From NCBI GenBank assembly GCA_963931865.1, contig OZ007512.1, positions 12,036,756 to 12,100,755 on the forward strand: DNA of 64,000 bases, written 5' to 3'. This DNA is from Axinella damicornis. Taxonomy: Eukaryota > Porifera > Demospongiae > Axinellida > Axinellidae. Shown in pieces: positions 2,228 through 60,131 of the stretch; within the stretch, counting starts at the first letter, position 1, and each line of letters begins with the position of its first letter. The notes beneath the pieces are model-generated. The model searched no databases and was not told the origin of the DNA. It worked only from the letters and a program-made list of their open reading frames with translations. Both the position numbers and the translations under genes were made by a program.

Positions 2228-2236
2228 CTATAAAAG
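2228..2236 (+). promoter_or_regulatory. TATA box of the CARD-CULT gene
   Basis: The string ctataaaag is a near-perfect TATA box 130 bp before the ATG at 2365. It implies transcription starting near 2260 and a 5' UTR of about 105 nt. It supports a short, intronless gene model. Downstream promoter elements were not identified. Confidence 0.55.
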
Positions 2237-2364: not shown

Positions 2365-3105
2365 ATGAGTGCATCAGGAGTACATGTGCTTGACCGGTGT
2401 TATTCACAGATGCTTAACTCTCTTCAGATTGATCAATTCAGCGACTACTATCGTAAATATGAAGCACTAACGGATGACGAATCAGGAGTGATCACGAACC
2501 CAAACAAAGACAGCTGCAGACGTACTAGACTGAATTGTATCGTAGAAGCTGTTAAACGGAGGAAGAGGGAGGGTCTGGAAAACTTCAAAAAAGCTCTTGA
2601 AGAAAGTGCCAACTTCCCAGGGTGTAAAACACACCGTGATATACTGGACGATATAAACACATACATGGATTCGGATCAGCCTAATAATGAGGTGTCATCG
2701 TTATCTAGAAGTATGAACAATCTGTCCTTATCAGACCGTGATGATTTCATCGTGCGCAACTTCCAATGCATATGTTGTGCTGGCTGTAACACCAAAATAT
2801 CCAACACCAGCTGTCTATTTGACAAAGACGGAGATGGCTCCTATAAGCAGGAGCATGTCAACCCACATGGATACCATCACGAGTTCATCACCGTCACGGG
2901 AATTACATGCCGGCCATCGCAGTTACGTTGGGACTCCAACGAGACCCTGGAACACACGTGGTTTCCCGGATACAAATGGACAATAATCCACTGCAGCAAG
3001 CCCAGGTGCTCCCGTCATCTGGGATGGCGTTTCCAATCAGTAAGAGCAGGTGCAGACCCACAGATATTCTTCGGACTATGCCGTCCAGCAATACTGCTCT
3101 GCTGA
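2365..3105 (+). CDS. CARD-CULT fusion protein (death fold plus cereblon-type thalidomide-binding domain)
   Basis: Single-exon ORF of 246 aa. Residues ~8-100 resemble a CARD: helices around SQMLNSL, an acidic 'ALTDDESGVI' turn, then LENFKKALEES and a final HRDIL helix. Residues ~131-246 match the CULT domain of cereblon: zinc ligands C138-x2-C141 and C210-x4-C215, the VNPHGYHHE segment, the aromatic-cage tryptophans W199 and W205 in WFPGYKW and W221 in HLGWRF, and a closing FFGLCRPAILL strand. The second Cys pair has two extra residues compared with human cereblon (C-x2-C). There is no Lon-like N-terminal domain, so this is not cereblon itself. CULT domains bind cyclic imides and uridine-like ligands; CARDs assemble signalling complexes. 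A ligand-sensing signalling adaptor is my inference. The ATG follows caaa and a TATA box lies upstream. The C-terminus is complete. Confidence 0.85.
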   Translation: MSASGVHVLDRCYSQMLNSLQIDQFSDYYRKYEALTDDESGVITNPNKDSCRRTRLNCIVEAVKRRKREGLENFKKALEESANFPGCKTHRDILDDINTYMDSDQPNNEVSSLSRSMNNLSLSDRDDFIVRNFQCICCAGCNTKISNTSCLFDKDGDGSYKQEHVNPHGYHHEFITVTGITCRPSQLRWDSNETLEHTWFPGYKWTIIHCSKPRCSRHLGWRFQSVRAGADPQIFFGLCRPAILLC

Positions 3106-34376: not shown

Positions 34377-37300
34377 ATGAATGTCTGCAGGGATTCTGCG
34401 AAGCTGATGCTCCTCATTGGTAGGTGCTCTGTGCAACTAACTTATGGTTTAATTAATATGCACACTGATGTTGGTACGTTAACAATATACTAAGTTTGGT
34501 ATAAGATAACGTGAGGGGTAGTAACGGGTAGTTAGTTATGTTGCCTGTGATCAGAATCCAAATATTGTCCTTGATTGCTTGATTGTTCCCTTCTGATTCT
34601 CTTGATCGCTTGATTTTGGGGGTTCAAAGGACAGAGGTGTAGCTAGTCTCGTTCCCAGACCATGGGCGTAGCTAGCATTGAGGCAGAGGAGGCAGTTGCT
34701 TCCTCGCTTTTCTGAATAATGACGCACGTGTCTGGAGTCCTAGATCCTCGCACATGCCGTCACGGTATGTGCGTTCGATCTTATGACAGAGGCAGGAGCT
34801 AGGCTGACCATGAGCCGGTGTATATAGTCTTAACACGGATAGTACAACATTGATACCGAAGCAGAGAGGGGCAGTAGAAGCTTTCATTTATGTGCTTACC
34901 ATCCGGCTACCATATGGCAAAGTTTTCATAATTCGACGGTTTAGTGCCTCAGTGCCTTGACTTGACTTGACTACCATTGAGGGGTTTACCACGATGGTGG
35001 CTAACGAGGGCCTAGAGAAGGCAGAGCCTATGAACCCAGGTCCCCCGAGACCGACGGCTTTACATCCCCTCCGAAGGATGCGGTGTGAACTGTTTCAGGT
35101 GAAATGCCTTCAAGAACACACCTAACATGCCAAGCATATATAGGAATGGCTTGATCCAATGTCCAACATGTTCAAGCTAGTCTTTAGCTACAGTTATAAC
35201 GTAGTCTCTCGAAAATACGTCCATGGGCAATGAACTTTAGTGGCTGCTCAGAGGGGGTGGGCGTATTTTTGAGGACCTCGCTCTTGAAAATAGGCCCACC
35301 CATTTCGAAAGTTAAGTACAAGATGCGTAATCAACAAATATACGAGTGCCATACTGCAACAGTCATTCTAGCAAGGCTTTACTACTACTACTCCCGGAGT
35401 TTCTTAGTGAGCAGGAAGAATCTCTTCGTGTGAGTAGCTACAGGAACAGCAAATAAGACACAGCAGGAGTGCTTGAATGACGTGGAGCGCGCAGACCACC
35501 TACGGGGCTTGCCAATTACTGCTACTATGTAACGGACCCGAGCGGTATTAACTTGCAACAGAAGAGTAATAACTGAATCACAATGAATCTTACAATCTCA
35601 GAAACTAACAAATCTCCCTCCATACAAAACCAAAGAGGTACTTAAATATACAGAGCAACAACAAAAGACTATTCAACAACAACAAAGGTAAGGACAATAC
35701 ACAAAAGGAGTCGCCCTGCGCACCAAGGGGCTCCCTCCAAAGTTGGGCCAACACTATTTAACATTAATTAACAGTTCCAGTCCTCCACACTCCACCCCCC
35801 TTCTCCTGCAGCAAACTAGTTCTGCGACAGCAAACTATAGTCTTGCTGATAATGCAGCCTTCCAGCTCAACTCAGTCAGCTCCTCATACGAATAGCTCCT
35901 CTCACTCAGTGTCTTGCAATATCCCCTAACTCTCTGTCTTGCATGCCTCAACGCCTCTTGCCTCCTGCGACCCTCGCCTTCTCTGGCAGCGACCGGCGTC
36001 CCGCTCAGCGACTCTCGCGCACTCTTGCGGCGACCCTCCGCTCCTGACGACCCTCGCACTCCTGGCTCACGTACTCTTGGCAATGTTGGAGGCAGTCGTT
36101 CACCAACGCTCCTCCCTCTCACAGTTTCGGAGGCAGTCACTCACACAGTGACCCTCCCTCTCTTGACACTCGGAGGCAGTCGCTCACTCAGCAACCCTCC
36201 CTCTGCTATGTCCGTCAAACCGCGGCTCTCTCCTCGCTCGCTCAGCACCTGCTGCACACTGCGTGTGGGCCCTGCCGCCGACTGGCGGGCAGTGGATCCC
36301 TGTGGGCCCTGCCGCCGACTGGCGGGCAGTGGATCCCACCGCTGCCACCAAATGTAACGGACCCGAGCGGTATTAACTTGCAACAGAAGAGTAATAACTG
36401 AATCACAATGAATCTTACAATCTCAGAAACTAACAAATCTCCCTCCATACAAAACCAAAGAGGTACTTAAATATACAGAGCAACAACAAAAGACTATTCA
36501 ACAACAACAAAGGTAAGGACAATACACAAAAGGAGTCGCCCTGCGCACCAAGGGGCTCCCTCCAAAGTTGGGCCAACACTATTTAACATTAATTAACAGT
36601 TCCAGTCCTCCACATACTAGTACTTCCGAGAAATCCATAGTCTTCTAGTGCTATGCTAGGGCGTGTGCATGGTCTCATGTCATGCATTCAGTCCACAGCT
36701 GATTATGCAATGGCATACAACATAATGAGTAGTACTGCGATAGCCAGCCTTCATTTCTTAGTCCCACCTCTTTGACAGTACTTCTTCCTGAGCTAGTCAA
36801 GTGCTTTCCTGTTCAAGCCAATAGGGTGGGTGACCCTTTGCAACAACTTGTCCCGAAAAAGGGGGGTGGGCGTATTTTCGAGAGACTACGGTACTTGTAA
36901 GTTCTTAAGTAGTATGTAGATTGCTTGATTACCTTCCATCCTACTTCAACATGCGACACATATGTGCTTTTGAATTTTGAATTACCCTTGAGGGATTTAC
37001 CATGATGGTGGCTAACGAGGGCCTGGAAAAAGCAGAGCCTATTGAACCAGGTCCCCCGGGACTGACGGCTTTACATCCCCTCCAAAGGATGCAGTGTGAA
37101 GTATTTCAGGTGAAACGCCTTCAAGAACACACCTACTCATTTTTAGAGTAGAGCTGAGTCAACTCCTAGGAGAGAAAACAATCACCTATGACAATGGTAG
37201 GACTCGAACCAGCAACCTTTCGATTAGCTGTCGAATGTTTCATCCACTTGGCCACCAGCCATCCCCCATCCTGCACTATCTGAATTTGATTCTTGTAGTA

Positions 37301-38880
37301 AATGAAGTGTGTGAAAAGTTGTAGAATGATTTATTTATTTCATAGTTCTCTTTGGCGGTGTGGCAGGATCAAAGCCAAAAATTGGTAAGTTCTGAGTCTC
37401 ACACACCAGTAGTACTTCTGTCCAACACATCACCACCTGCAAATGTATATAATGGCATGGCATCTCAGCAGCACCAATTGCTATGTATAGTTCAAGAAAT
37501 ATGATGTTTACGATAAACTCACTCGCATGTGCTTGTTAGACAGATTGAAGTTGAACATTGGACAAGCACTATTGATACTGTAGTGAACTTTAAAAAAAAC
37601 TATCTTCTTGATGAATGCAGACGACATTCCTGCTTTGACTGAGTTGCGAAAATTCCCAGCAAAAGATGGAAGTATTGACATTGCAACTGAGATTGGCACT
37701 GATTATGAACACTTTGGAACTTTGATTCTGGAGGACAAGACTGGAAGTAGAGTTAAAAGCATCGACAAAACCAAGCATGGTGATGCAGGTGATATTGCAG
37801 TCGAGATCCTACGGCAGTGGCTACAGGGGAAAGGGAAGCAGCCTGTTACGTGGCGAACGCTGGTTGAGTGTATACAAGACATAGGGTTGAATGTTCTTGC
37901 CAATAACATTAAGAGTGGACTGTCGCCAGGAGGTGACAGCGAGGTTCCTGGTCCTTCAGTTGAACCTGTTCCACATCCATCGGACAATCCACGACCATCT
38001 GACAATCCACAACCATCACCTTGTAAGTTGTCATTTCACAGTGGTAAGCAGAACATATTATAGGCTCATTGCTTATAGCAGCATGTTCAACTTCGGAAGT
38101 CACTTGACAGAGCATTGACATAGCAGAATACAGAATGTTTCAGCTCAAAAGCCTTCATCAGCTGCTAGCTGTCACAACTAGCAGCACCTATAGCACCTGC
38201 ACTTCCAGTTTGATCTCAGTTGTGTCAGCTAGCAGCTGATGAAGGCTTTTGAGCCAAACCGTTCTGTAATCACTGTCCATGAAAAACTGGTGATCTACCA
38301 CCATCAAGCCACTATATAGTGATGTGACCTGGGAAATATTCCACATGATTGAAATTGGCGTGAACTCTGCCCCATAACTCCTCCTTGGTATGACCCAAAA
38401 GCATCATTTCCTGGTCATTGCTACAGTACTGCTCCTGTATAAACAGTATAAACCACAAACCAACTCATACTCAGATTGTGAATACTGTTGCATGCATTCA
38501 ATATGGAAAGTGGTCCCGTAAGTTGAATACATAGTTATCATGTAATACAACATTTCGTTTTACTAACTACAGTGGATTGCCACAGAATCTCACGGAAGCG
38601 AGACCTGGAAATAGCCGTGGCTGTGATTGGCGACTGGCAAGCACTCTGTGAATACCTAGGAGTACCAAAGCCGGTGCTCCAGCAACTTCGTTATGACAAT
38701 AAGCAACATTCTGAGAAGAAGAGTGAATGTCTGGAGGCTTACCTTAATACAGGGGAAGCCTGCTGGGAAACCGTAGTTCGGGTTGTAGCACACTATCCAT
38801 TCTATAACAAGAAGGTTGCTAAGGAAATAGCGGACAAGTATGAGGTAGATTACTCTAAGCATGTGAAAGAGGAGCTGTAA
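34377..38880 (+). CDS. Signal-peptide double death-domain protein A
   Basis: Four exons: 34377-34419, 37346-37384, 37621-38022, 38573-38880, all GT-AG, giving 263 aa. The first two exons encode MNVCRDSAKLMLLI-VLFGGVAGS, a plausible signal peptide or signal anchor. Residues ~32-125 form a death-domain-like unit (LTELRKFP, DYEHFGTLILED, AGDIAVEILRQWL, VTWRTLVECIQDIGL). A Pro/Asn/Ser-rich linker (PSDNPRPSDNP) follows. Residues ~165-255 form a second death-domain-like unit (WQALCEYLGVP, KSECLEAYLN, CWETVVRVVAHY, AKEIADKYEVDY). Death folds normally act in the cytosol, so a secreted form would be unusual. Exon 1 is the least certain because it is only 43 nt and lies 2.9 kb upstream. Intron 1 contains a nested LTR mini-element and SINEs. 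Confidence 0.72.
34970..35125. repeat. Dispersed repeat, partner of 36977-37270
   Basis: Shares tggtggctaacgagggcct, gacggctttacatcccctcc and ttcaagaacacacct with 36977-37135. This copy lacks the tRNA-like end. Confidence 0.65.
35200..36890. mobile_element. DNA element with cgtagtctctcgaaaatacg ends, split by a retrotransposon
   Basis: The terminal sequence cgtagtctctcgaaaatacg begins at 35200 and its complement ends at 36890. Removing the nested LTR element (35528-36614 plus one target copy) leaves about 600 bp. The ends are also rich in CCACCC/GGGTGG next to the inverted repeat. Confidence 0.6.
35528..36614 (-). mobile_element. Mini LTR retrotransposon (TRIM/LARD-like), minus strand
   Basis: Two direct repeats of 262 bp (35528-35789 and 36353-36614) look identical; each starts TG and ends CA. 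The flanks are a perfect 5-bp duplication tacta (35523-35527, 36615-36619). Read on the minus strand, the 5' LTR is followed by tttggtggcagcggtgggat, a typical tRNA primer-binding region, and the 3' LTR is preceded by a purine tract (ggagaaggggggtggag). The internal region is only 563 bp with no reverse transcriptase. A minus-strand frame of 101 codons at 36140-35835 is basic and may be a gag remnant. It is non-autonomous and, with identical LTRs, recent. Confidence 0.85.
36977..37270 (-). mobile_element. tRNA-derived SINE
   Basis: On the minus strand the element starts with a tRNA-like head at about 37268-37198 (box A tggccaagtgg, box B ggttcgagtcc) and continues into the body shared with 34970-35125. 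The anticodon loop cagctaa lacks U33, so it is not a functional tRNA gene. Confidence 0.65.
38134..38268. repeat. Hairpin repeat in intron 3 of gene A
   Basis: Arms ctcaaaagccttcatcagct and its complement are about 90 bp apart. The duplicate copy is at about 42600-42722 in gene B. Confidence 0.65.
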
Positions 38881-40083
38881 TCCACGGAAACATTTTTAGC
38901 ATGTTTTATATAGAGCTACAAATTGAACTAGCAGTGTAGTTGCATTTTCCGAGATAAAAGATTTAACCCCTAGTCCAGACTGAATGCTGACCTTCAGCAG
39001 CTGTGGCTCTTTCAGTTTACAAGGGGGTGACACCCCCATAGACACCGTAGTCAGAGCTGCAACCTGGCTTATCGGTGTACCCCGTATACTAAGGAAGGGG
39101 TGGAGTCGCTACACGTATACTATCAGCGGTCAAGTGGCCAACAGCTGAAATACAGTTCAGTCAAATGGTCAAGTGCGATGCGGTCAAGTGGTCAAGCACC
39201 AAAAATGACGGTCAGGTTTTCTTGACCTGGTCGCAGCTCTGACTACGGCGTGAATGTCAGTGTGACCCCAATGATATCTACTCTACCATGCAACAGTTGA
39301 AGGCATGATATCATTTCCAACCATGTATTATCGATGCTCGTCCGTAAGGTGTGTATTAGCCTACGTACATGCATTAGCATACTGTGGCTTCAGAAAAAAG
39401 AGAAACTGGTAAGACAAGTCTTGGAGCTTATCACTTGTGATTGTAACCTATAGTGACTAAGTGTTGGCATACGTACCACAAGAATGACATAGTGACAGAA
39501 TTGAGGTTTGTGGAGGGACACTGAACACTGGAAGTTACAACCTACTACTGCATGTGACTAGTCATAGGACTAGGCATAACTAGATCCTCATCTTGCCAGT
39601 TTTCTCAATTGGAACTCTTAGTTACGGTAGCTAACTACATTGCCACCTCATTTTCAAATTAAGTGCCGAACTTTTGCATAAAGTACATGTAATAGTGTGC
39701 CTCTGGCTGAAGCAGCGGCTGCAGCACTTGTTGCAATAAGCACACTTCTTGCTCAAATAATCATAATCCTGATGGGCATCTCAGAACCCTTGAGATGTAT
39801 AAGAGAGACCAAAGTTTGTGAAGACCATTATGGTGGTAGCTGTTCATAGGTCCCAACTACATGTAGTCTCGCAGGCCAGACTTTACATTCCGCCGAAAGG
39901 GGATTTTTCCCCACCCAGGTGCGAAAAATCGTCTGGGAACGAGACTATGTTCGTCTGACTGCCATGTGCTTTTTCATAAGCTGCTGCTACGTTATTAGCC
40001 TCGTTCCCAGGCCCACACGCGAAACGAAGGCCTGGGTACGAGGCTACTGCGTTATTGCGTGAGCCCTTCGATCAGATCAGTAG
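38881..40083. other. 3' flank of gene A with hairpin MITEs
   Basis: No further exon seen. It contains a repeat at about 39020-39250, related to 60930-61240 (motifs aaggggtggagtc, ggtcaagt, ggtcgcagct), and TAGYCTCG hairpins at 39864-39947 and 39996-40046. Confidence 0.55.
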
Positions 40084-40561
40084 GCTACTCCTCGTCGATC
40101 GTGCGTGTACGTGTGGGTGTAAACATTTTGTGGGCGGGGCTGGTACCTCACGTGAGTCTGCGCTCCAAATTCAAAAGGGGGAGGATCCCTAGCAACGCTT
40201 TCGGCGATCCCTAACACTAAATTGCGCTGCCATTTATGATAGTATCGCTGCCACTGGATGCCCTGCTGAGGAGGAAGCACGGACGGGTTCAAAGAAGGCA
40301 GCTGAATTAATCCTGCGTGCTGCTGCAGAGTTTGTCTACGTTTGCAGGGCCTCTGGCAAAGGGGGCGGAGTCTCACTTGGACTAGGGGGAGTAGCTGGTT
40401 TGAATACAGTCGAGTTATTGCAATCGAAAGGGAGATCGCGTACTCAAAAGCGATATTGGGGGGTTGAGGAAAGTAATTTTGGAGTTATTTATACACAGAA
40501 ACCTTGTGCGTGTGTAAGGATTTGAAAGGCGCCGAGTTAGAACGGTCAACGCCCACTCACG
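40084..40561 (+). promoter_or_regulatory. Promoter copy 1 (upstream of death-domain gene B)
   Basis: Near-identical to 45995-46465 upstream of the receptor. It contains a GC box (gtgggcgggg), an E-box-like cacgtga, a tagcaacg half-site like an RFX X-box, and a TATA-like ttatttataca at about 40485 some 75 bp before the ATG. Promoter function is inferred. Confidence 0.5.
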
Positions 40562-43500
40562 ATGCTATTGCGTGGCTTCCTATGGTGTGTGGTGTTCGCC
40601 GTGCTACTAGGTGAGTTTAAATGTCCTCAGAAACTTTTGCTCTATAAAGTGCATAGAGTTTGAAGTAACCAGGCAATTCATGTGTGGTACGGAGGAATCA
40701 TGTTTTAAATTGCCAGTTGAGTGTGGTCCGAAACGACCGGCGGTGTGAGGTGAATTAATTTTGCAAGTCTTGCAGTCAGGAGCCCATAATGAGGAAGCGA
40801 GCGGAAGGAAGGGAGGAGCGTGAAACGACCACGCCAAAGATTAAAAATTGAAAACTTTCCCACGGTAGTCCCGTTACTATTTTTAGCTCGCACGCGTACG
40901 GAAACTTCAAAGAAGGACGACTTCTAGCCGGGCTAGAACACAGAGAAAAGGCCAGTATCAGGACTCCAATGGCAGCGAGGCACGGGAATGACATACTGGT
41001 AGTGACAGACCTCGAGAAAGTGCCGTATGACGATGCAGTCGATCGAGCCGCCAAGCGGGTGGTGGAAATAGCCGCCCCTTCTGCTTTTCTGGAGTTCATG
41101 ACTGCTGGGAAACATCCCGCGACACTTACGGACACTATCTTCTCTCTCCCATCGAGATTTGACCCGTCGCTGTAGGCCTATATTTATATAGCTAGTCAGT
41201 CACAACAATACACGTGCATGCTAAAAATAGTAACGGGACTACCATTTTCAATTTTTAATCTTTTGCGTGGTCGTTTCACGCTCCTCCCTTCCTTCCGCTC
41301 GCTTCCTCATTATGCGCTCCTGTTGCAGTCCATAGTTATTTGTGTTGCACTTAGATTGTAGCTACCACAGAAGAGAAGTATCTGCGTGCGTGCGATTGCC
41401 ATCGCTGCAAAGCACAACACGGTTACTAGCCAAGGTCGTGCCCCAAGCAAGAATTAGCAGTGAAGAACTCCTTCAGCAGACGGCCGCGGGATGTACTCGT
41501 GAGTCTTCTGACCGGCACTGGTTAAGTCACTTTGTTACTACGTATATATACTGCTGGAGGCTTTTCCCTAGCTCGCCTTCCGACGGTTACTACTGTCCTG
41601 AGCTTCGCGAGCATCTCCAACTTGCTTCGCAAGTCGCACATTTGACAGTTGTGGGCACCCCCCCCCCCCCCCCCCCCCCCCCCCATTCCTGTAGTCCTCT
41701 ACTATCTGAATTTGATTGTTGTAGTAAACTGTGAAGTGTGTGAAAACTTGCAGAATGAGTTTATTCTTTTGCAATTCATAGTTCTCTTCGGCGGTGTGGC
41801 AGGGTCAAAACCAAATATTGGTAAGTCAAGTGTCTGTCCCAACAGACCGAGTCTCACACACCAGAAATTGCTTCCCTCCAGCACATCACCATCTGCACAA
41901 TCATGTATATCACAGCATGGCAATTGTATGTAGTTCAAGGAATATAATGTTTGATTGTTTTTACGATAAACTCACTCGCATGTGCTTGTTAGGCAGATGA
42001 ATTTGATCATTGGCCAAGCATTATTGATACTTCAGCGAACTTAAAAAAACTCTGTCTTCTTGATCAATGCAGACGACAGTCCTGCTTTAACTGAGTTGCG
42101 AAAATTCCCAGCGAAAGATGGAAGTATTGACGTTGCAGCTGAGATTGGCACTGATTATGAATACTTTGGAACTTTGATTCTGGAGGACAAGACTGGAAGT
42201 AAATTAAAAAGCATCGACAAAACCAAGCATGGTGATGCAGGCGATATTGCAGTCGAGATCCTACGGCTCTGGTTACAGGGGAAAGGGAAGCCTGTTACGT
42301 GGCGAACATTGGTTGAGTGTCTACAAGACATAGGGTTGAATGTTCTTGCCAATAACATTAAGAGCGGACTGTCGACGTCGCCAGGAGGTAACAGCGAGGT
42401 TCCAGATAATACTGGTCCTTCAGTTGAACCTGTTCCATATCCATCGGACAATCCACGACCATCTGACAATCCACAACCATCACCTTGTAAGTTGTCACCT
42501 CACAGTGGTAAGCAGAACATATTATAGGCTCATTGCTTATAGCAGCATGTTCAAGAAGTCACTTGACAGAGCATTGACATAGCAGAATACAGACTGTTTC
42601 GGCTCAAAAGCCTTCATCAGCTGCTAGCTGTCACAACTCAGCATCTATAGCACCTGCACTTCCAGTTTGATCTCAGTTGTGTCAGCTATAGCAGCTGATG
42701 GAGCTAGGCTCTTGAGCCAAAACGTTCTGTAATCACTGTCCATGAAAGACTGGTGATCTACCACCATCAAGCCACTATACAGCCATGTGACCTGGGAAAT
42801 ATTCCACATGATTGAAATTGGCGTGAACTCTGCCCCATAACTCCTCCTTGGTATGGCCCAAAAGCATCATTTCCTGGTCATTGCTACAGTAATGCTCCTG
42901 TATTAGGGGTGGGCCGATACCGATACCAAATATTCGATACTGTCGATACTCGCTTACGCGCTGATGGTATCGATACTTGCAAGCAGAATCGGTGTGTTTC
43001 GATACTTGCGCGCGCCGCACACACAGTTTGTGCGCATGCACGATTTCAACCTTTGAACCTTTCCGCATTCCCAAACAGACTTGTCGTTTGTGACTTTGTA
43101 ATGGTATCCGGTGGTGATAGTGAGGCTGGATCTTTTTCTCTGATCATGGGTGGTGCCTCAGTTAGCCCAGTGACAGCTGAGAAGTAGCCAAGGAGTACCG
43201 TATGGCTATATTTCAAGACGTTACCTGAAGTCTTATCTGTGCTTCATTTTTATGAATATCGGTATCGAAAAAAGTATCGTATCGACAGTATCGAAGGTAA
43301 AATACTCAGTATCGTATCGAACTGAAAATAACTGGTATCGCCCACCCCTATCCTGTATAAACCAGTATAAACCACAAACCAACTCCTACTCAGATTGTGA
43401 ATACTGTTGCATGTTTTCAATATGGAAAGTGGTCGCTGAATACATAGTTATCATATTCGTTTTACTAACTACAGTGGATTGCCACAGAATCTCACGGAAG

Positions 43501-43782
43501 CGAGACCTGGAAAGAGCGGTGGCTGTGATTGGCGACTGGCAAGCACTCTGTGAATACCTAGGAGTACCAAAGCCGGTGCTCCAGCAACTTCATTATGACA
43601 ATAAGCAACATTCTGAGAAGAAGAGTGAATGTCTGGAGGCTTACCTTAATACAGGGAAAGCCTGCTGGGAAACCGTAGTTCAGGTTGTAGCACACTATCC
43701 ATTCTATAACAAGAAGGTTGCTAAGGAAATAGCGGACAAGTATGAGGTAGATTACTCTAAGCATGTGAAAGAGGAGCTGTAA
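40562..43782 (+). CDS. Signal-peptide double death-domain protein B
   Basis: Four exons: 40562-40610, 41782-41820, 42073-42486, 43475-43782, giving 269 aa. Exons 2-4 duplicate those of gene A with few changes (an extra STSPGG and PDNTG in the linker). Exon 1 encodes MLLRGFLWCVVFAVLL, a strong signal sequence that is identical to exon 1 of the receptor at 46466, not to exon 1 of gene A. Phase 1 junctions match, so the chimera reads through. The two death-domain-like units are as in gene A. Intron 1 holds a hAT-like insertion and a poly-C run (~41658-41683); intron 3 holds another hAT-like insertion. Whether exon 1 really joins exon 2 needs transcript evidence; exons 2-4 are solid. Confidence 0.72.
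40777..41322 (+). mobile_element. 546-bp hAT-like element with ~100-bp inverted repeats and an internal frame
   Basis: Ends caggagcccataatgaggaa and complement. It is flanked by ttgcagt at 40770-40776 and 41323-41329. The duplicate copy near 46823 has the single, uninterrupted site, which proves insertion. Inside, an open frame (about 40870-41175) encodes an acidic/basic peptide containing HGNDILVVTDLEKVPYDDAV and ends at a stop. I do not recognise the family; it may be a captured host exon. Confidence 0.8.
42904..43350 (+). mobile_element. 447-bp hAT-like element with 8-bp target duplication
   Basis: Ends taggggtgggc(c)gatacc and complement ending cgcccacccta-type at 43350. It is flanked by tcctgtat at 42896-42903 and 43351-43358. 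The empty site survives in copy 1 near 38430. The interior has gatac/gtatc-rich subterminal repeats and a short frame (MVSGGDSEAGSFSLIMGG). Confidence 0.85.
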
Positions 43783-43879
43783 TCCACGGAAACATTTTTA
43801 GTATGTTTTCTAGAGCTACAAATTGAACTATATAGCAGTGTAGTTGCATTTTTCCGAGATAAAAGATTTAACCCCTAGT

Positions 43880-43968
43880 CCCCATTGCCTGGAAACACGC
43901 TTTTCTGAATGACCTTTGAAAGTTTGAATGTGCATGCCATGGGCTGTAATAGACCAATCTTTTTCTTT

Positions 43969-44015
<47 letters not shown>

Positions 44016-44035
44016 GTCTGGAGAACAAGCCTAGG
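43880..44035. repeat. Copy-2-specific insertion with a T/G homopolymer
   Basis: Absent from copy 1 near 38975. It contains cttttttttttt followed by about 36 G, a likely sequencing or assembly weak point. Confidence 0.6.
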
Positions 44036-44845
44036 CCTAGACTGAATGACCTTCAGCAGCAGAGGCTCTTTCAGTTCACAAAGTGGGTGACACTCCCATA
44101 GACACCGTAGTCAGAGCTGCGACCTGGCTTATCGGTACCCCCATATACTAAGGAAGGGGTGGAGTCGCTACACGTATATATACTATCGGCGGTCAAGTGG
44201 CCAACAGCTGAAATACAGTTCAGTCAAATGTTCAAGTGCGATGTGGTCAAGTGGTCAAGCAGCAAAAATGATGGTCAGGTTTTCTTGACTTGGTCGCAGC
44301 TCTGACTACGGCGTGAATGTCAGTGTGACCCCAATGATATCTACTCTACCATGCAACAGTTGAAGGCATGATATCATTTCCAACCATGTATTATCGATGC
44401 TTGTCCGTAAGGTGTGAATTAGCCTACGTACATGCATTAGCATACTGTGAACTCTGAGTCTAACTATCCGTGGGCCTGGGAATGAGGCTACTTTTATACA
44501 ATATGGTTCAGCACTTAATTTGAAAATGAAGTGAAATGTTTTCCACTAAGGTGTTCTAAGGGCTTCAGAAAAAAGAGAAACTGGTAAGACAAGTCTTGGA
44601 GCTTATCACTTGTGATTGTAACCTATAGTGACTAAGTGTTGGCATACGTACCACAAGAATGACATAGTGACAGAATTGAGGTTTGTGGAGGGACACTGAA
44701 CACTGGAAGTTACAACCTACTACTGCATGTGACTAGTCATAGGACTAGGCATAACTAGATCCTCATCTTGCCAGTTTTCTCAATTGGAACTCTTAGTTAG
44801 GGTAGCTAACTACATTGCCACCTCATTTTCAAATTAAGTGCCGAA

Positions 44846-45586
44846 GGTGTCACGGAAATTTTGGTCCGGCAAAAAAATTGGTCCAGGGGACCAAAATTTC
44901 CGGAATATCGGCCCAGGCGGATCATTTTTATCCTGAAAATTTTGGTCCCCCTGTAAAAAAAATGGTCCTTGATCATGATAGAGCTAGACTACTTCGTGTA
45001 CAGTATGGTGGATAGCTATGAGTAGCCTGCATTGTAATAGCGAGTGTATTGGCATGCTTGATGTCACAGCATATACGGCTATACTGTCATCGTACCGTGA
45101 GCGTATTGCTCAGAGTGCGAGTTGTGGCTTGACAATGAACAACATCGACATTGAGCCGGCAGAATTTGTCCAGGTCATCCACAATGGTAGAGGATACTGC
45201 TACTACACTGGCATTTGGAGAGCCCCCAGGTCAGTACCACTTCGATCAACAGAATGTGCGTTGCCATCTGTACGGAGTGCCAGGAACTGCTTTGATCTTG
45301 AGAGAAGGAAGATGTCATTTTTTCCGTACAGCAAGCTGAGACGGGCCACAGAATCGACTGTCAAGTCAGTAGAAGTCCCAGTGTACTGCATTTGTAGGAT
45401 GCCAGAGCTAGCGAACATTGGATTGAGTGCTCTGGCTGTAAGAAGTGGTAGGTTGGGGGGAGGACCAAAATTTTCAGGGTAGGACCAATTTTTCCGGAAA
45501 AAAAAGGTCTGGGGGACAATTTTTTCCAGTGGAAAAAGTGGTCCTAGGACCAATTTTTCCAGGACCAAAATTCCAGTGACAAACCT
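44846..45586 (+). mobile_element. ~740-bp DNA element with ggaaattttggtcc ends and a PHD-type remnant
   Basis: Copy 1 lacks it (near 39672). The ends carry gtcac-ggaaattttggtcc and a complementary ggaccaaaattccagtgac, with further aaaaattggtcc repeats inside. The frame 45018-45482 ends in a segment (KMSFFPYSKLRR then VPVYCICRMPE) like the Ulp1-protease/PHD-finger junction found in some animal DNA transposons. The protease core is not recognisable, so this is a degraded or non-autonomous copy. Confidence 0.6.
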
Positions 45587-45994
45587 TTGCATAAAGTACA
45601 TGTAATAGTGTGCCTCTGGCTGAAGCAGCGGCTGCAGCACTTGTTGCAATAAGCACACTTCTTGCTCAAATAATCATAATCCTGATGGGCATCTCAGAAC
45701 CAAGCTTGAGATGTATAAGAGAGACCAAAGTTTGTGAAGACCATTATGGTGGTAGCTGTTCATAGGTCCCAACTACATGTAGTCTCGCAGGCCAGACTTT
45801 ACATTCCGCCGAGAGGGGATTTTTTCCCCCCGGGTGCGAAAAATCGTCTGGGAACGAGACTATGTTCGTCTGACTGCCATGTGCTTTTTCATAAGCTGCT
45901 GCTACGTTATTAGCCTCGTTCCCAGGCCCACACGCGAAACGAAGGCCTGGATACGAGGCTACTGCGTTATTGCATGAGCCCTTCTATCAGATCA

Positions 45995-46465
45995 GTAGGC
46001 TACTCCTCGTCGATCGTGCGTGTGGGTGTAAACATTTTGTGGGCGGGGCTGGTACCTCACGTGAGTCTGCGCTCCAAAAGGGGGAGGATCCCTAGCAACG
46101 CTTTCGGCGATCCCTAACACTAAACTGCGCTGCCATTTTCGATAGTATCGCTGCCACTGGATGCCCTGCTGAGGAGGAAGCACGGACGGGTTCAAAGAAG
46201 GCAGCTGAATTAATCCTGTGTGCTGCTGCAGAGTTTGTCTACGTTTGCAGGGCCTCTGGCAAAGGGGGCGGAGTCTCACTTGGACTAGGGGGAGTAGCTG
46301 GTTTGAATACAGTCGAGTTATTGCAATCGAAAGGGAGATCGCGTACTCAAAAGCGATATTGGGGGGTTGAGGAAAGTAATTTTGGAGTTATTTATACACA
46401 GAAAGCTTGTGCGTGTGTGAAGGATTTGAAAGGCGCCGAGTTGGAACGGTCAACGCCCACTCACG
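45995..46465 (+). promoter_or_regulatory. Promoter copy 2 (upstream of the receptor gene)
   Basis: Near-identical to 40084-40561, with GC box, E-box-like site, X-box-like half-site and TATA-like ttatttataca near 46390. The shared promoter predicts co-expression of gene B and the receptor. Confidence 0.5.

Positions 46466-60131
<13,666 letters not shown>

Follow-up and report, generated by a model that had tools for sequence, protein, structure and literature searches.

Gene Locus and Domain Layout

The window, a 64,000-nucleotide stretch of the genome of the sponge Axinella damicornis (assembly GCA_963931865.1, contig OZ007512.1, positions 12,036,756 to 12,100,755 of the forward strand), contains a CARD-CULT gene, in which a divergent CARD is followed by a linker and by a CULT domain, the thalidomide-binding domain known from cereblon (Table 1). 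An earlier note on this DNA had described one uninterrupted reading frame with three cage tryptophans, a VNPHGY segment (residues 165–170) and two Cys pairs; the frame is exactly as claimed there, and all of these residues lie at the claimed positions. The same note had proposed that CARD and CULT are encoded by one intronless gene, and on this point the sequence, 13 further full-length relatives and structure prediction agree. A full-length match to the CARD-CULT gene occurs at one place only in its own genome (226 Mb, 120 contigs).

Table 1. Coordinates of the CARD-CULT gene and its parts in the window.
Feature	Position	Strand	Description
CARD-CULT gene	2365..3105	+	Single open frame, 246 amino acids plus stop; ATG at 2365, TGA at 3103–3105
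CARD	2377..2676	+	Residues 5–104; six predicted helices
Linker	2677..2757	+	Residues 105–131; motif form (S/T)RSxSxLSL; low model confidence
CULT (thalidomide-binding) domain	2758..3102	+	Residues 132–246
First cysteine pair, C138/C141 (C138-x2-C141)	2776..2787	+	Invariant in 19/19 aligned proteins
Cage tryptophan W199	2959..2961	+	Invariant in 19/19 aligned proteins
Cage tryptophan W205	2977..2979	+	Invariant in 19/19 aligned proteins
Second cysteine pair, C210/C215 (C-x4-C)	2992..3009	+	Both Cys invariant in 19/19 aligned proteins
Cage tryptophan W221	3025..3027	+	Invariant in 19/19 aligned proteins
TATAAAAG, possible TATA box	2229..2236	+	First base 136 bases before the CARD-CULT start codon

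A Conserved CARD-CULT Family

Relatives were sought in three protein searches, which yielded 5, 18, and 17 proteins, and 19 proteins were aligned, including the query; P0020, a CULT-only protein that was matched later, was excluded. The database consists of predicted proteins from uninterrupted frames, many of them on short contigs, and intron-bearing relatives may be missed. CARD, linker, and CULT are present over their full length on single frames in 14 of the 19 proteins (P0001–P0004 and P0006–P0015, query included); P0002 begins a few residues late, and P0003 and P0004 start without Met. P0005 has two tandem CULT domains and a CARD remnant as its N-terminus, and four proteins (P0016–P0019) have no CARD in the predicted protein. 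Identity to the query is 93% for P0002, 65% each for P0003 and P0004, 45% for P0005, and 29–34% for P0006–P0015. The linker motif is conserved, with deviations in some members. Given these 14 full-length proteins, and the presence of the three Trp and four Cys in all 19, we infer from the predicted proteins that CARD-CULT is a conserved family and not a chance fusion.

P0001 and P0002 are identical at 80/90 CARD positions (with six gap positions) vs. 115/115 CULT positions (Fisher p = 2e-4), whereas P0003 and P0004 show the opposite trend (83/93 CARD vs. 84/110 CULT positions identical). Among the 45 pairs of P0006–P0015, the CULT domain is the more alike in 31, with mean identities of 66% for CULT and 62% for CARD. 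The idea that the CARD generally evolves faster than the CULT domain was dropped, because P0003/P0004 reverse the pattern of P0001/P0002. An unrooted CULT tree, to which cereblon and CULT-only proteins contribute one sequence each (P0020 for the latter), would fit the family having arisen once, and is too thin to serve as proof. Narrow patterns from the 19-sequence alignment revealed no confirmed relative in bacterial or archaeal species genomes (3 pattern stretches) or in viral contigs (20).

The C-Terminal CULT Domain

Residues 132–246 are confirmed by sequence comparison as a CULT domain with three cage tryptophans and both Cys pairs. In a single-sequence search of solved structures, residues 131–244 match cereblon (E = 2e-19), and when the first six family members are combined into a profile, the E value is 1.7e-26. 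Because the cereblon alignment reaches residue 244 of 246, the domain seems to be complete without any intron having to be assumed. Pfam reads this part of the protein as Yippee-Mis18, a neighbour family, with a score (26.6 bits) that equals the cut-off itself; the Yippee-Mis18 model is matched by all 19 aligned proteins at E ≤ 0.05. The relative P0006 likewise gives both a sequence match and a fold match to CULT.

In addition to the tryptophans and cysteines listed in Table 1, N166, P167, E196, and H218 are identical in all 19 aligned proteins, where the first CULT domain of P0005 was used for residue counts. The Cys pairs of known CULT domains hold zinc; the second pair has the C-x4-C spacing only in the query and P0002, and is C-x2-C in the remaining 17 of 19. 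The Tyr of WFPGY, at position 203, is conserved in 14 of the 19 proteins and replaced by Phe in 5; it presumably corresponds to Y384 of human cereblon. In one study, the cereblon Y384 alanine mutant is termed binding-deficient (PMC4449219).

The N-Terminal CARD

Residues 5–104 are identified as a divergent CARD by sequence comparison together with a predicted model, although Pfam taken alone gives weak evidence. The Pfam CARD model matches the query with E = 0.011 for the whole protein and E = 0.0018 for residues 1–111, both below the curated cut-off, and a genome-wide search with the CARD model (E ≤ 0.1) did not list the CARD-CULT gene itself. The CARD-like N-terminus claimed in the earlier note is nevertheless upheld by relatives, by the family profile, and by the predicted fold. 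P0006, which has the same layout, passes the Pfam CARD cut-off. A profile of the family N-terminus, compared with CARD loci of the same genome, gives a best match of E = 2e-11, and the family hidden Markov model (HMM) matches 26 of the 33 loci retrieved as CARD or CARD-like at E ≤ 1, a set that is enriched for CARDs; at the same threshold, no other retrieved locus was matched except those containing the CARD-CULT gene. The structure prediction for the query gives a six-helix fold nearest to CARDs, in that the best 18 structural rows comprise 17 natural CARDs and one designed protein. For P0006, the structural match list was filled by CULT matches and is no test of its CARD part.

Within the CARD, D10, D27, R30, R53, and K64 are kept in all 14 full-length members. 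Positions 52, 55, and 66 are Lys or Arg in 14/14, and positions 37–39 are acidic in 11 to 13 of the 14. The nearest relatives of the family CARD among the retrieved loci are two on contig C3 (L003 and L004), where the open frame that comes next appears, judged by eye, to be membrane-spanning. L050 and L051 are two related C3 loci with a hydrophobic, probably membrane-spanning frame after the CARD frame; of all retrieved loci, their CARDs have the highest scores with the family profile.

Search for Cereblon and LON

The CARD-CULT protein has no LON match at E ≤ 10, and no other third domain was matched. The earlier note had suggested that the protein could act independently of the cereblon E3 ligase; only the lack of a LON match supports this putative independence. 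A cereblon CULT fragment searched against the genome found the CARD-CULT gene (E = 1.4e-18) as well as three weakly matching sites (E = 0.028, 0.043, and 0.43); in translation, none of the three has the cage together with the two Cys pairs, and stops interrupt two of them. One of these, L043 (C3:10812614–10812769, minus strand; E = 0.043), is a faint CULT-like stretch with three stops, possibly a decayed CULT copy or a chance match. Another weak match, L006, was rejected as a CULT candidate, as by eye it reads as an SRCR-type gene.

Five LON matches were identified in the genome (L045–L049). By eye, we take L045/L046 to be a LON-RING protein and L047/L049 to be a LON protease. A fragment of human cereblon that comprises LON and the helical part had no match in the genome, in a search run without a positive control and in which introns could hide cereblon. 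A genome search with PF03226 gave nothing above the cut-off; it is too insensitive to count, since the CARD-CULT gene itself was not listed either.

CARD, Caspase, and Related Genes in the Same Genome

Death-fold domains among eukaryotes are stated to be confined to animals (PMC10055258), and another paper reports a sponge with 39 CARD and 128 DEATH genes (PMC12909245). In the A. damicornis genome, for which all domain counts are lower bounds, there are at least 67 CARD matches (57 above the cut-off, of which five only jointly with a neighbour in frame), at least 39 caspase-domain matches, at least 6 NB-ARC matches, and at least 5 BIR matches. Between the 39 caspase matches and the 67 CARD matches, no pair is less than 80 kb apart, although separate distant exons would escape such a count; the closest caspase match is at 80 kb. 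By comparison, a CARD match is at most 6 kb away for 3 of the 6 NB-ARC matches. When frames of at least 60 amino acids from eight caspase stretches were searched with the family CARD HMM, no match reached E ≤ 1. Direct CARD-caspase genes were rejected on these two grounds: no caspase match near a CARD match, and an empty HMM search of the caspase stretches. Four caspase matches lie 139–297 kb from the CARD-CULT gene on contig C8, for which no meaning is claimed. Elsewhere, contig C77 carries a tandem caspase array (21702–72733), with nine caspase-domain matches, all on the plus strand, over about 51 kb.

Locus L064 (C7:5565000–5574999) has an Apaf-1-like layout, in which 4.7 kb separate a two-CARD frame from an NB-ARC frame, both on one strand. 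TPR models were matched at E ≤ 1e-3 by three of the seven long CARD frames scanned (L028, L033, and L035), with the cut-off passed by L033 alone. These three are single frames of 508–579 amino acids with CARD and TPR matches, and are possible adaptors. The proteins behind the 57 CARD matches above the cut-off, the Apaf-1-like locus with tandem CARDs and NB-ARC, and the long CARD frames are possible partners of CARD-CULT.

Other Features of the Window

Directly upstream of the CARD-CULT gene, and on the same strand, lies a helicase-type C-terminal exon (574–1398, +) with an AAA_12 match (E = 1.4e-21) and an RG/GG-rich tail. Between this exon and the CARD-CULT gene are AATAAA at 2153 and TATAAAAG at 2229; the latter is the TATA-like sequence of the earlier note, which can be read in the DNA as a putative element. 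Farther along, 37269–40765 and 41695–46744 form a tandem segmental duplication of several blocks with 87–99.6% identity. In the second copy, the frame 42045–42524 passes the Pfam Death model (24.4 bits); the corresponding first-copy frame, 37587–38060, is without a Pfam match at E ≤ 0.01. A plus-strand frame at 46916–47389 has DUF4215 matches (E = 2.6e-11).

Comparison With Known Systems

CARD-CULT shares with cereblon the CULT fold, the three cage tryptophans, the two Cys pairs, and the NPHGY and EHxWF motifs, with 38% identity over 105 aligned residues. Unlike cereblon, it is without a LON match, and a CARD precedes the CULT domain. The stand-alone CULT proteins, secreted in animals and also found in bacteria, are alike in fold and pocket residues; they consist of CULT only, with a signal sequence in animals (PMC4287342), whereas CARD-CULT also has a CARD. 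By Kyte–Doolittle analysis, residues 1–45 of CARD-CULT include no strongly hydrophobic stretch that would suggest the secretion signal of secreted animal CULT proteins (maximal mean hydropathy of 1.2 over 9 and 0.15 over 19 residues; no dedicated signal-peptide predictor was used). A six-helix CARD is shared with Apaf-1, caspase-9, BinCARD, NLRC4, and RIG-I/MAVS, which are the best structural matches of the predicted query model; in contrast to CARD-CULT, no CARD protein bearing a CULT domain was found in the literature searched.

The 2015 description of CULT lists cereblon, secreted animal, bacterial, oomycete, and kinetoplastid groups and a few more; neither "CARD" nor "death" turned up as a word in its main text (PMC4287342). 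Among the papers listed by literature searches on cereblon or CULT, which leave out most subscription papers, none deals with a CARD-CULT protein as judged by titles and the opening of abstracts, in line with the earlier note, which knew of no such architecture. CARD and CULT are each known, and their union as a conserved family appears to be new.

Proposed Function of CARD-CULT

Our tentative preference is for CARD-CULT as a cytosolic sensor-adaptor, in which the CULT pocket would accept cyclic-imide or uracil-like ligands and the CARD would recruit another CARD protein. Cereblon is reported to recognize cyclic imides (PMC11974815), and a bacterial CULT domain is described as undergoing ligand-induced folding and as binding uridine (PMC4449219). 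The CULT cage of the sponge protein would bind a cyclic-imide or uracil-like group, for which we suggest as candidates the cyclic imide at the C-terminus of a damaged protein, a nucleoside (uridine), or a microbial imide. Ligand binding would order the CULT pocket, as in the bacterial domain, and/or cluster several molecules on a damaged target. The ligand-bound CULT domains would bring the CARDs together, and the CARD would then nucleate assembly with another CARD protein. Type I CARD contacts would be suited by the acidic (D27, and mostly 37–39) and basic (52, R53, 55, and K64) positions of the CARD.

The partner is more likely to be an NLR- or Apaf-like protein or another CARD adaptor than a caspase directly, as the lack of caspase matches close to CARD matches favours a CARD protein acting in between. 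The earlier note had suggested that small-molecule or damaged-protein sensing is coupled to death-fold or caspase signalling; the coupling to death-fold signalling may hold and fits the conserved pocket, whereas the distances between caspase and CARD matches make caspase signalling, if taken narrowly, less likely.

Other explanations were weighed against a sensor-adaptor. That the gene is a prediction artefact or a chance fusion of two neighbouring genes is barely credible: it is known here from DNA frames alone, but the 13 further full-length members have the same domain order and a common linker motif while being 29–93% identical to the query. It is also highly improbable that the N-terminal part is some other six-helix bundle, in view of P0006 passing the Pfam CARD cut-off, the family HMM matching most of the CARD-enriched set of loci (best E = 2e-11), and natural CARDs making up nearly all of the best structural rows for the query model.

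The remaining alternatives accept both domains and assign them different roles. CARD-CULT could be a regulator or decoy, its CARD capping or blocking other CARD assemblies in the manner of CARD-only proteins, and its CULT domain only placing or stabilizing the protein; this is unlikely, since the ligand cage is kept in all 19 members, including distant ones, and a mere tether would not need a cage. As an E3 substrate receptor, it would bind cyclic-imide proteins through CULT and dock a CARD-bearing ligase through its CARD (cIAP1 has a CARD), in place of LON/DDB1. We consider this quite unlikely, as no CARD match lies near the BIR matches, on coordinates compared by eye, a comparison that could miss a weak CARD or one obscured by introns; no search was aimed at RING domains or ligases. 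A protector, which would bind cyclic-imide ends or uridine without degradation and compete with cereblon, with the CARD only clustering the protein, is consistent with the missing LON match and the conserved pocket. It is nevertheless very unlikely, because it presumes a cereblon in this genome, the presence of which is not established, and does not itself explain why the CARD is conserved.

If the sensor-adaptor reading is extended to the family, CARD-CULT proteins might form a conserved family of animal CARD receptors gated by ligands: on detecting cyclic-imide damage marks or metabolites that resemble uracil, the thalidomide pocket would activate a CARD signalosome. We regard this as possible, albeit doubtful. 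Targeted-degradation drugs act mainly through the cereblon pocket, whose natural role is still under study. A family with this pocket on a death fold, without the LON part, would mark it as a sensor of more general use, and could give a clue to the natural ligand. Were CARD-CULT proteins ligand-gated CARD receptors, drugs of the glutarimide type would be expected to activate or inhibit a pathway of innate immunity or cell death with no ubiquitin ligase involved; the prediction is a chemically switchable CARD pathway that would be addressable with existing glutarimide compounds.
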